DNA of 64,000 nt, taken from NCBI RefSeq assembly GCF_020387415.1, contig NZ_JAGWCB010000018.1, forward strand, positions 186,001 through 250,000, read 5' to 3'. Shown here in pieces: positions 27,416-32,140 of the stretch. The translations under genes and the position numbers were made by a program. Every line of letters begins with the position of its first letter. The stretch's first letter is position 1. The notes beneath the pieces are model-generated. The model was given only the letters and a program-made list of their open reading frames with translations. It did no database searches and was not told where the DNA came from. The stretch comes from Ideonella benzenivorans (GTDB lineage: Bacteria > Pseudomonadota > Gammaproteobacteria > Burkholderiales > Burkholderiaceae_C).

Positions 27416-27919
27416 TCAGCGGCGGCGCCACCCGGCCTTCACCTGGGCCACCAGCGCCCGTGCCAGGCGCCATGGCGCGCTGGCGCGCACCCTCTGCAGC
27501 AGCGCGGCCTTCCAGGGCACCCAGCGGTCGTGCCAGCGCGCGAACCAGGCCAGCTGCATCAGCGCGGGCCGGGTCAGCGTGAAGAGCCGGGCCACCAGGG
27601 CCGTGCCGCCCAGCTTGGCGGCCACGATCACCATCAGCCCCAACACCGCATGGCCACGACCCACAGCCCATAGCGCCAGCAGCTTGACAGGCAGCAACGC
27701 CAGCGTGGGCAGGGCGAACAAGGCCAGCGCCCCGTAGGGCGGCAGACGCCGCACCCAGGCCTCCAGCTGCCGGAAGCCCGGCCAGGCCCCGAGCCAGGCC
27801 AGCAGCCGTTGCAGCGTGTCCCAACCCCATTCCTCGAACAGGATCAGCAGCGCCAGCGGCCACTGCCACAGCGCGCGCAGCAGGGCCCGCAGCGCCGAGG
27901 GGTTCTGGGACTCGGGCAT
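27416..27919 (-). CDS. Unrecognised membrane protein
   Basis: A 167-residue protein with at least two hydrophobic stretches (LWQWPLALLILFEEWGWDTLQRLLAWLGAW and YGALALFALPTLALLPVKLLALWAVG, in parts, then HAVLGLMVIVAAKLGGTALVARL) and a basic, Trp-rich C-terminal end (RASAPWRLARALVAQVKAGWRRR, in parts). It looks like a small integral membrane protein with an amphipathic cytoplasmic tail. I do not recognise the family. Its ATG lies 5 bp after the stop of the large SNF2-like gene on the same strand, so they form an operon. Confidence 0.75.
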   Translation of the reverse strand: MPESQNPSALRALLRALWQWPLALLILFEEWGWDTLQRLLAWLGAWPGFRQLEAWVRRLPPYGALALFALPTLALLPVKLLALWAVGRGHAVLGLMVIVAAKLGGTALVARLFTLTRPALMQLAWFARWHDRWVPWKAALLQRVRASAPWRLARALVAQVKAGWRRR

Positions 27920-27924
27920 GCGGC

Positions 27925-30222
27925 TCAGACCGCGGCGGCCTCCGCTGCCGGCGTGGCGTCAGGCGTGGCGCTGGGCAGCTGCAGGCAGGCGGCCAGGTCG
28001 GCCAGCCAGGTCTGCAGCGCCGCCCCGTGGCGCAGGCGCCCCGTGCTCACTGGGGCAGCCGGGGCCTCGCTCAGGCCCGCCGTGGCGGCCCGGGCGGCCA
28101 GCTGGGCCTGCCGCCGGGCGGCCAGGCCGTCCTCGGGCAGAAGCTGCCAGACCGGCACCGCGCGCTGGCCACGCGGCAGGCGCAGGCGCTGCAGCCGGCG
28201 CTCACGCAGGGCCTCGTCCCAGGGACGGTCCAGGTGGATCACCAGCGGCGCCTGCGGCCCGGTGGGGATGCGCGGCTCGCTGCCGGGCAGGCCGTCGGCC
28301 ACCAGCAGCAGGCTGGGGCCCTCGGCGTCGCGGAAGGCACGCAGCACCGGGTCGGCCTCGCGGTGGGCCGTGGGCAGCACCTGGGCCTGCCAGCCGCCCT
28401 CGGCCAGCCACTCGGCCCAGGCCGGCATGTCCTCGGCGGCCTCGGGCTGGGCGAACAGCACGACCCGCGTGCGGCCCGCGGCGCGGGCCTCGCTCAGCAG
28501 GTCGGGCAGCACAACCAGCGCGGCCTCGCGCTCGGCCGCCTCGGCCTGGGTCAGGCTGGTCTTGAGCAGCAGCTGATCGCTGTCGGACAGGAAGCCGCTG
28601 CGCTGCCAGCGCACCAGCAGCGGGCTGAGCGCCGCCAGCGCCTGGTCGTGCCGGGCCCGGCTTTCCTCGTGCCAGGGGCAGCTGCGGTCCTGCGGTGCCC
28701 AGGCCGGCCATTGCTCGGCCACCTCGGCCCAGTGGCGTTGCAGCAGCAAGGGGCCCAGTGCCTCGGGCGTGGCCTCGGCCAGGCCCTGGGCCAGCGCGCC
28801 GCTGCCCAGGCGGTCCAGCCGGGTCAGCCAGGCTTCGGCGGCGGCCGGCTCGGCCTGCAGCGCGTCCTCGGCCGCCAGCACCCACAGCCAGGGGCTGTCG
28901 GTGGCGGACTCGGCCGGCAGCGGCTGCCAGCCGTCGCGCTGGTCGACGATCAGCACCTCCACGCCGGCGGTCGGCCAGGGGTCGGTGGGCGCCAGCAGCT
29001 GCACCTGGGCGTCCTCGCCCAGCGGGGCCAGCAGCGCCTGCCAGCGGGCCCGCCGGGCCTCGTCGGTCGAGGCGCCCAGGCGCAGCGCCAGGCTGCGGGC
29101 GCCAAAGTGACGTTGCACCAGCTGCCAGGCCAGCGCCAGCTCCCGGTCGGGCGCCAGCTCGGCGGCATCGGCCAGCAGGCAGGCGCCCGCGCAGGCGGCG
29201 AAGAAGGCCGCTTCCAGCTGGGCCGGACGCGGTGTCAGCGGGCCGGCCGCGGCACCAGCGAAATGGGCGGCCTCCAACCCCTGCGGGAAGCAGGCCTCCA
29301 GGTGGGTGATGCGCTGGCGCAGATCACCCTTGAGGGCCAGCTGGCGCCAGACGGCATCCTCCACCACCAGCGGGTGGCCGCAGCGGGCGGCCAGCGCCAG
29401 CAGTTCGTCCAGCGCCTCAGGGCCGCCCGGCGTCAGGCGGCCGTCCGCCCCCTGCCAGCGGGCCACCGCCTGGCGCAAGGTGTCCGGGCAGCCCCGGCCG
29501 GCCGTCCACTGCAGGCGGCGGGGGCCGCCCTCGGCGACTGCCACCAGCGCCAGCGTGCTGGGCGTGGGCGGCAGCGGCGCCGCCGCAGGGGTGGGTGCCG
29601 GAGACGCGGCCTCGACCGGCGCGGCAGGCAGGTCCTGCGCCGGCGGGGCCTCGACCACCACCGGGGTCGGCTCAGCCTCGGTCGGCACGGGCGATGTGGC
29701 GGGTGCGGCCGCGCTGGGCACTTCAGGCGCCACCGGGACCGGTGCGGTCGCTTCCGCCGCCACGGCAGCCGGGGCCGGGGTCTCGGTTGGCAGCGCGACC
29801 AGCTCGGCGGCAGGCGTCTCGGTCGCCGGCGCGGCGGCCCGCGCCCGGGTGCCGCGGGTGCTTTTGCGCGCGGCCGGGCGGGCCGGCTTGGGTGCCGGTG
29901 CGGCGACATCGGCCACGGCGTCCGCAGGCGTCACGGCCTCGGCCACCGCCTCGGGCTCGGCCACCGGGACGGCTGCTGGCTTGGCGCGGGTGGACTTCTT
30001 CGCCGCCACACGCGGCTTGCGGGCGGCCGGAGTGGTCGCCTCAGCCTCCACCGCGGGTGGGGCGGCGGCCGTCTTGCGCTTGCGTACCGGGGCGGGGGTC
30101 GCCTCGGGGGTGGGCGTGGTTTCAGGAGGGGTATCGGGGGTCGAGGCCGCGGTGGGCGCGGCCGTCAGCGGCGCGTCGTCGGCCGGTGCGGCGGCGCGGC
30201 GGCGCCGGGAGGTGGTCGCCAT
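27925..30222 (-). CDS. Large protein resembling a catalytically dead SNF2-family helicase
   Basis: A 765-residue protein. Residues 1-225 are Ala/Pro/Val-rich with basic islands, including repeated KSTR motifs (AAKKSTRAKPAA, AARKSTRGTRARAA) like histone-H1 tails. From about 235 the sequence can be lined up by eye with bacterial SNF2 ATPases, but the motifs are erased: the region expected to hold D-D-x-G-x-G-K-T reads LLADAAELAPDRELALAW (349-366), the DEAH-like box reads VLIVDQRDGW (423-432), motif III reads LWVLAAEDALQ (446-456), motif V LLLVADGLPGSEP, and motif VI keeps its outline, VIHLDRPWDEALRERRLQRL (661-680). PLLLQRHWAEVAEQWP resembles the PLLLRRTK block. The frame is intact, so a structural or regulatory pseudoenzyme is likelier than a decaying gene. 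The SNF2 link is from memory of the family, not a search. Confidence 0.7.
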   Translation of the reverse strand: MATTSRRRRAAAPADDAPLTAAPTAASTPDTPPETTPTPEATPAPVRKRKTAAAPPAVEAEATTPAARKPRVAAKKSTRAKPAAVPVAEPEAVAEAVTPADAVADVAAPAPKPARPAARKSTRGTRARAAAPATETPAAELVALPTETPAPAAVAAEATAPVPVAPEVPSAAAPATSPVPTEAEPTPVVVEAPPAQDLPAAPVEAASPAPTPAAAPLPPTPSTLALVAVAEGGPRRLQWTAGRGCPDTLRQAVARWQGADGRLTPGGPEALDELLALAARCGHPLVVEDAVWRQLALKGDLRQRITHLEACFPQGLEAAHFAGAAAGPLTPRPAQLEAAFFAACAGACLLADAAELAPDRELALAWQLVQRHFGARSLALRLGASTDEARRARWQALLAPLGEDAQVQLLAPTDPWPTAGVEVLIVDQRDGWQPLPAESATDSPWLWVLAAEDALQAEPAAAEAWLTRLDRLGSGALAQGLAEATPEALGPLLLQRHWAEVAEQWPAWAPQDRSCPWHEESRARHDQALAALSPLLVRWQRSGFLSDSDQLLLKTSLTQAEAAEREAALVVLPDLLSEARAAGRTRVVLFAQPEAAEDMPAWAEWLAEGGWQAQVLPTAHREADPVLRAFRDAEGPSLLLVADGLPGSEPRIPTGPQAPLVIHLDRPWDEALRERRLQRLRLPRGQRAVPVWQLLPEDGLAARRQAQLAARAATAGLSEAPAAPVSTGRLRHGAALQTWLADLAACLQLPSATPDATPAAEAAAV

Positions 30223-30247
30223 GGGGCGAGAGCTTCCGTGGTTGGTG

Positions 30248-30280
30248 AAAAAAACACCCGCGCGGGCCCGGTCGGGCCGG
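30248..30280 (-). terminator. Probable terminator of tgt
   Basis: Read on the minus strand, a GC-rich region able to pair (GGCCC with GGGCC around GACC, then CCC-GCGC-GGG) is followed directly by a run of seven T (30254-30248). It lies 20-50 bp after the tgt stop and before the SNF2-like gene. The stems are short, so the exact hairpin is uncertain. Confidence 0.5.
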
Positions 30281-30300
30281 CGGCGGGCGGGGCGGGTTCG

Positions 30301-32140
<1,840 letters not shown>

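Follow-up and report, generated by a model that had tools for sequence, protein, structure and literature searches.

The superfamily 2 (SF2) helicase domain of XPF/Rad1 lacks catalytic motifs and is used for binding; it is fused to a nuclease and is not of the SNF2 type. Here, we describe gene X, which lies on the minus strand at 27925..30222 of a 64,000-nucleotide stretch of Ideonella benzenivorans DNA (contig NZ_JAGWCB010000018.1, positions 186,001 to 250,000; hereafter the window) and encodes a 765-aa protein that was classed as an SNF2-derived pseudoenzyme by open reading frame (ORF) analysis, hhalign, and Foldseek. We propose that X is a selectively kept SNF2 pseudoenzyme, orthologous to the SWIM-SNF2 ATPase of its order, that serves as a non-catalytic scaffold (probability about 0.7). 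Two described pseudohelicases are suitable for comparison. PriA of Deinococcus radiodurans, like X, is a helicase of bacterial origin whose Walker A and B motifs are poorly matched and which its host has kept; unlike X, it has been assayed biochemically, binds DNA, interacts with DnaB, is not an SNF2 protein, and has its Walker lysine changed to arginine only (PMC4504706). Yeast Utp25 shares with X a helicase fold, dead motifs, a disordered N-terminal region, and a proposed cofactor or scaffold role, but it is of DEAD-box RNA helicase origin, eukaryotic, and essential; the 2022 paper calls it "only the second proposed pseudohelicase", after Deinococcus PriA (PMC9539457). No SNF2 pseudoenzyme was found in searches of the open-licence PubMed Central (PMC) literature, whose matches were partly judged by title and the start of the abstract. 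The Variovorax "snf2" biofilm proteins, small secreted proteins of 102 aa, were set aside as unrelated by size, with the sequences uncompared (PMC7494200).

The descent of gene X from an SNF2 ATPase is virtually certain. When seven sequences of the Ideonella-type clade (which includes row L004, a Burkholderiales metagenome-assembled genome) were compared with five intact SNF2 proteins by hhalign, the probability was 99.8 with an E value of 1.1e-28 over 467 columns, and this kinship is therefore not a matter of chance. The alignment spans the N-terminal region of the family through lobe 2, including both RecA lobes. A search of the Protein Data Bank (PDB) with profile A2 (17 rows, mostly eroded and some partly intact) retrieved chains of CHD1, CHD4, SNF2, ISW1, and RapA with E values down to 3.3e-24. 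The Ideonella-type profile alone reached SNF2 (1z5z) at an E value of 0.025, which is non-significant by itself, and the window protein, used alone as a query of PDB sequences, gave one unrelated match (E 1.6). An AlphaFold2 (AF2) model built from the seven sequences was of moderate confidence, with a predicted local distance difference test (pLDDT) score of 65 and a predicted template modelling (pTM) score of 0.44. The top Foldseek match of the model was the Sulfolobus SNF2 core (1z63; E 1.3e-9, 477 columns). Of the 50 matches listed, 43 were SNF2-type according to their titles, including remodellers, CSB/Rad26, Mot1, Rad54, and RapA, six were XPB helicases, members of another SF2 family that appeared at ranks 2 and 4, and one was Dicer. 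An earlier sequence-only reading of the window, made without database searches, had suggested an SNF2-like origin with two RecA lobes; profile kinship, Foldseek, and the motif table described below all agree with this origin, and the model, at its moderate confidence, did not depart from RecA lobes. The window protein itself matched no Pfam family, including SNF2-rel_dom and Helicase_C, and no NCBIfam model at E ≤ 1. Among the 23 members of A1, SNF2-rel_dom was detected in 12 and Helicase_C in 14 (Pfam, E ≤ 0.1).

X has intact and half-eroded orthologues in related genera. The intact SWIM-SNF2 orthologues (e.g. L021 in G044) resemble X in having the N-terminal region of the family, a two-lobe core, a block after motif III, and a (R/Q)W(R/Q)xxGxLSD-type segment, and in occurring as one copy per genome where scored. 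Unlike X, they keep GLGKT, DEAQ, TGTP, QRIGR, and the SWIM ligands; their core carries net positive charge, and their tail is short. The best curated NCBIfam models for L021 were NF053675 (pilus expression-regulating Snf2 helicase) and NF058637 (SCO1167 family helicase), both at E ~1e-67 and far under their cut-offs (226–229 bits versus 1100–1200). The Pfam SWIM model scored 13.2 bits on L021, under its 19.6-bit cut-off. An anti-phage module was rejected as a candidate function, with no PADLOC match for the window protein; the PADLOC matches of L021 (DpdE, ZorD, DrmD, and the like) fall over its ATPase region, and we take them to reflect the common SNF2 domain.

The X ORF starts with ATG, ends with TGA, and has no internal stop in its 765 codons. 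The sequence-only reading had described such an uninterrupted frame; the segments that it named were all found at their residues, and the ruined motifs were correctly placed. Residues 1–222 (29557..30222; all parts of X are on the minus strand) form a low-complexity Ala/Pro tail with Lys/Arg patches, and residues 223–765 (27928..29556) comprise the eroded two-lobe SNF2 core with the family-specific N-terminal region, in which ACFPQG occupies residues 310–315. In the alignment, the former Walker A loop is now ADAAELAPDRE (residues 351–361, 29140..29172); ADAAELAPDREL sits in the GDEMGLGKTIQA columns of intact relatives and lacks the GxGKT of motif I. At the former DExx box (now VDQRDGW, residues 426–432, 28927..28947), VLIVDQRDGW aligns to LVIADEAQRI, departing from DEx(H/Q) in that the Asp is kept and the Glu is gone. 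The segment after motif III is PLLLQRHWAEV (residues 491–501, 28720..28752), and RWQRSGFLSDSDQ (residues 538–550, 28573..28611) is well conserved in the Ideonella-type clade. In the former motif VI region, VIHLDRPWDEALRERRLQRL (residues 661–680, 28183..28242), RRLQRLRLPRG aligns to QRIGRVHRMGQ; the first and second arginines of QRxGRxxR are kept, and the Gln and the third Arg are replaced. As read from these alignments, motifs I, II, III, and V are replaced in X, which very probably has no ATPase activity. The motif table thus bears out the prediction that motifs I, II, and III have been lost from a frame that is still open. The further claim that all catalytic motifs were erased goes slightly too far: all seven Ideonella-type sequences still have the Asp of motif II, together with two of the three arginines of motif VI. 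Such residues would fit an ATPase that is still active with displaced or unorthodox motifs, but the Walker Lys and Thr and the motif II Glu are replaced in the same seven sequences, and a pattern scan detected neither GK[ST] nor G-x4-GK in the 765-aa window protein, making an active enzyme scarcely credible. The absence of GK[ST] rules out displacement of the motif within the window protein, and those orthologues that keep GKT carry it at the canonical place.

The motif table of 56 sequences contained intact, partial, and erased states. A fragment (G351) and a split gene (B508-1) were left out of the trees and group counts, and the G392 copy, which is split over contig ends, was kept with its missing motifs treated as gaps. 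In a tree calculated without the motif columns, 15 intact rows were separated from 39 eroded rows at 100/100. The Walker lysine is present in all 15 intact and all five g12 sequences, is Lys in two and Arg in two of the four g59 sequences, and is replaced by Leu, Met, or Gln in g14/77 (7/7), by Gln or His in the "big" clade (16/16), and by Pro or Ile in the Ideonella-type clade (7/7). The motif II Glu is retained in the intact (15/15), g12 (5/5), g59 (4/4), and most g14/77 (5/7) sequences, and in none of the "big" (0/16) or Ideonella-type (0/7) ones. The third Arg of motif VI is found in 14 of 15 intact rows (the other has a gap), in 3/4 of g59 and 1/7 of g14/77, and never in g12 (0/5), "big" (0/16), or Ideonella-type (0/7) rows; the first Arg is retained in every eroded clade except g12, where gaps take up part or all of motifs V and VI. 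The SWIM ligands (CxC...CxH) are kept in 15/15 intact, 15/16 "big", 7/7 g14/77, and 1/4 g59 sequences and are absent from g12 (0/5) and the Ideonella-type clade (0/7); residues 1–222 of the window protein lack these ligands, which intact relatives have N-terminally. In the tgt-linked copies L149 (G143), L167 (G240), and L172 (G367) and their kin, the Walker lysine and DEPQ are kept and most of motifs V and VI is lost; this type is possibly an ATP binder without a motor. The best tree joins the Ideonella-type clade with g14/77 and "big" at 92/96, and it requires at least two changes of the Walker lysine. An alternative clade of Ideonella-type plus g12 was not rejected by the approximately unbiased test (p-AU 0.312), and if these two are held together the losses would rise to three. 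With outgroups included, the backbone inside the gene family lacks resolution and long branches meet.

Gene X is in all likelihood maintained by selection. The ratio of nonsynonymous to synonymous substitution rates (dN/dS) was calculated for the core by the Nei–Gojobori method with bootstrap intervals, using 15 pairs picked from the tree as close relatives and hence non-random. All 13 eroded pairs gave values of 0.12–0.51 with intervals below 1 (highest upper bound, 0.66), and third codon positions were the most changed; the two intact pairs gave 0.17 and 0.20. The sequence-only reading had pointed to conserved length, and these values bear signs of selection; a pseudogene remnant was rejected as the main explanation on this ground. 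The dN/dS of the tail exceeded that of the core in 11 of the 13 eroded pairs (0.21–0.65), where tails begin at the upstream stop and may include untranslated codons.

The electrostatic character of the protein bears on whether it would bind DNA. The mean core net charge is +6.6 in intact members (range, 3 to 10) and is −15.3 in the Ideonella-type clade, −11.0 in g12, −11.1 in g14/77, −10.5 in g59, and −12.4 in "big"; every eroded row is at −3 or lower. In SF2 enzymes, the motif Ia and V columns contact DNA, and these columns are eroded in the Ideonella-type clade. The suggestion of a DNA-bound protein thus finds no support for the core, whereas a DNA-bound tail is possible; a regulatory pseudoenzyme would be plausible. 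The core also contains only two lysines in 543 residues, but this places it near the low end among the 41 genes predicted in the window (median 1.95%, minimum 0.33%), and lysine scarcity was dropped as evidence. The tail had been described as basic, Ala/Pro-rich, and carrying KSTR repeats: Lys/Arg patches are present and KSTR occurs twice (residues 76–79 and 120–123), but with 8 Lys, 14 Arg, and 22 Asp plus Glu in residues 1–222 the net charge is zero, and the tail is basic only locally. Median tail lengths, which are rough since the start was taken as the first ATG, are 63 aa in intact members and 191–352 aa by eroded clade. The copies L128, L131, L135, L137, L138, L139, and L141 have H1-like Lys/Ala/Pro tails of net +41 to +61 and keep the SWIM ligands. 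Long tails, and those of +41 to +61 in all seven g14/77 members, would suit an ATP-independent DNA clamp or nucleoid protein, whose SNF2 shell and H1-like tail would coat or bridge DNA, and D. radiodurans PriA has lost ATPase activity yet binds DNA (PMC4504706). Such a clamp is nevertheless unlikely in view of the negative core of every eroded row, the net-zero tail in the window, and the range of −8 to +5 in the seven Ideonella-type tails. Because the core charge is negative, we prefer a protein scaffold over a DNA clamp, a choice that is evenly balanced when taken alone.

Here, we propose how a retained scaffold would work. X would have stopped as a motor, with no binding or hydrolysis of ATP and no translocation on DNA, and its two lobes may form a static scaffold to which a partner protein is bound. 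The partner would be contacted mainly outside the dead ATP cleft, through the PLLLxRxxADVAxQWPAW segment and the RWQRSGFLSDSDQ region, and the long Ala/Pro/Lys tail may be a tether, possibly to nucleic acid. In the Ideonella-type clade, the mean pairwise identity is highest among the regions measured in the block after motif III (0.77), and it is 0.72 in both the RWQRSGFLSDSDQ region and the lead-in before motif I, compared with a core mean of 0.53; motif Ia (0.33) and motif III (0.39) have fallen from 0.97 in intact members.

Several observations weigh against a retained scaffold. The Foldseek template modelling (TM) scores were 0.2–0.36 among the matches listed, on a model of moderate confidence, and the placement of the lobes in the model is untrustworthy because these scores are low. 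Conservation also gives no clear pointer to surfaces remote from the cleft: identity within the Ideonella-type clade does not drop below the core mean in motif VI (0.66) or motif I (0.55), and across the eroded rows as a whole the two favoured segments (0.45 and 0.46) score lower than the lead-in (0.65) and the N-terminal region (0.52). Constraint is weak in the window lineage (G000), in which the dN/dS of X was 0.51 versus G153 and 0.49 versus G157. In the G000–G153 pair, the values for tgt, argG, and the small downstream gene were 0.12, 0.17, and 0.24, respectively; X is under constraint at its core, but in the window lineage this constraint is weaker than that on the neighbouring genes. X was not found in 8 of the 16 genus genomes: in six of the eight (G076, G154, G159, G160, G162, and G163), no family-profile match above noise was detected in the DNA around or after tgt, and in G076, G154, and G163 none was detected at the family level in the whole-genome profile search either; for the others, the evidence of absence outside the tgt region is the search of the 16 genus genomes. 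In the draft genome of Ideonella sp. B508-1, the gene is split over two contigs (L003:1-1334 and L228:3124-4276), the second half being preceded by an unrelated membrane-protein-like frame; this may be a rearrangement or a misassembly. G158 appears to represent this genome as well. These absences and the split, the high ratios of the two G000 pairs (~0.5) and of G143/G240 (0.42), and the loss of SWIM with a variable tail in the Ideonella-type clade could be those of a decaying gene, whose function went with its ATPase and whose frame is still unbroken, more so in the window lineage. We consider decay improbable. All 13 dN/dS intervals lie below 1, the SWIM zinc ligands are kept in 22 of the 23 "big" and g14/77 sequences taken together, and the loss of the Walker lysine is common to whole clades, of which "big" spans seven genus codes with open frames; a neutral gene would be unlikely to stay open for so long.

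The distribution of the family is consistent with an ATPase ancestor. A search of 150 genomes of the taxonomic family of the window with the single protein matched 24, of which 18 hold gene-family members and six only other SNF2 proteins; the members included eroded copies, intact SNF2 proteins, and intermediates. Profile A2 reached further and matched 51 of 399 genomes at 158 bits or more, a membership cut of our own choosing above the next match at 137 bits; matches below it begin at about profile position 98–124 and are SNF2 proteins without the N-terminal region of the family. By motif table and tree, the 51 genomes divide into 16 intact-type, one of them the G351 fragment, in which scarcely anything beyond motif I is seen, and 35 eroded. 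The count of one gene-family copy per genome holds for the best two to three candidates scored in each. In an order-level search of 300 genomes, 10 matched at E ≤ 1e-42, namely, the genome of the window, G070, and eight outside the taxonomic family. GLGKT and DEAQ were found in seven of these eight, with the strict QRIGR pattern in four of the seven, and the eighth (L199, with two TAG codons inside the match) was unreadable by the motif script. The intact state is probably ancestral because seven of the eight genomes outside the family show GLGKT and DEAQ; eroded copies were seen only inside the taxonomic family. The sequence-only reading had proposed to look for an active SNF2 paralogue; the only Pfam SNF2 match in the window genome is C20:88977-89813, with GLGKT and DEAQ in a 1435-aa frame. 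X could accordingly be a regulatory partner, the allosteric half of a pair with this or another cellular ATPase, but the C20 protein is encoded on another contig and is outside the gene family (104 versus 575 bits with A2), and we regard such a pairing as doubtful.

In the window, X is preceded by tgt (tRNA-guanine transglycosylase; 30301..31446, minus strand; Pfam TGT, E 5.2e-159) with a 78-bp gap and is followed, 5 bp downstream, by a gene at 27416..27919 (minus strand) for a protein of 167 aa that is hydrophobic by eye and has no Pfam match. All three genes are on the same strand. The 167-aa gene adjoins X in most tgt-linked copies and is present in 11 of the 16 genus genomes, four of them without X. 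A 1235-codon open frame at 28027-31734 on the plus strand lies antisense to X and tgt and can most probably be put down to high G+C content. Copies of the Ideonella-type and g12 clades are located at tgt, at the small downstream gene, or at both: G155 and G367 have tgt only, G151, G011, and B508-1 have the small gene only (X runs off the contig end in G151 and G011), and in G157 another gene stands between tgt and X. The grouping of Ideonella-type with g12 is suggested by the tgt address that they have in common. In 23 genomes of the "big" and g14/77 clades (L126–L144 and others), the common address is near a DEAD-box RNA helicase gene; in L131 and L126, the eroded gene directly follows a gene that is pabB-like by eye. 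The copies of the remaining clades are at other addresses, and synteny fails to unify the gene family.

Beyond the single gene, we lean slightly toward the view that the whole SNF2 subfamily went from DNA motors to non-catalytic scaffolds in stages and by different routes. In one lineage the ATP cleft would have survived and the lobe-2 machinery would have been lost, and in others the Walker lysine would have gone, with the DE box or the SWIM zinc finger still in place; in all of them the core charge would have been reversed, and mostly a long low-complexity tail gained. The window protein exemplifies a class of genes that standard models miss, with neither a Pfam nor an NCBIfam match. If the proposal is true, the family would be a natural series with living intermediates for the passage from motor to scaffold, and its intact, half-dead, and dead members, one per genome where scored, may serve to test which SNF2 job needs no ATP and in what order the motifs are lost.

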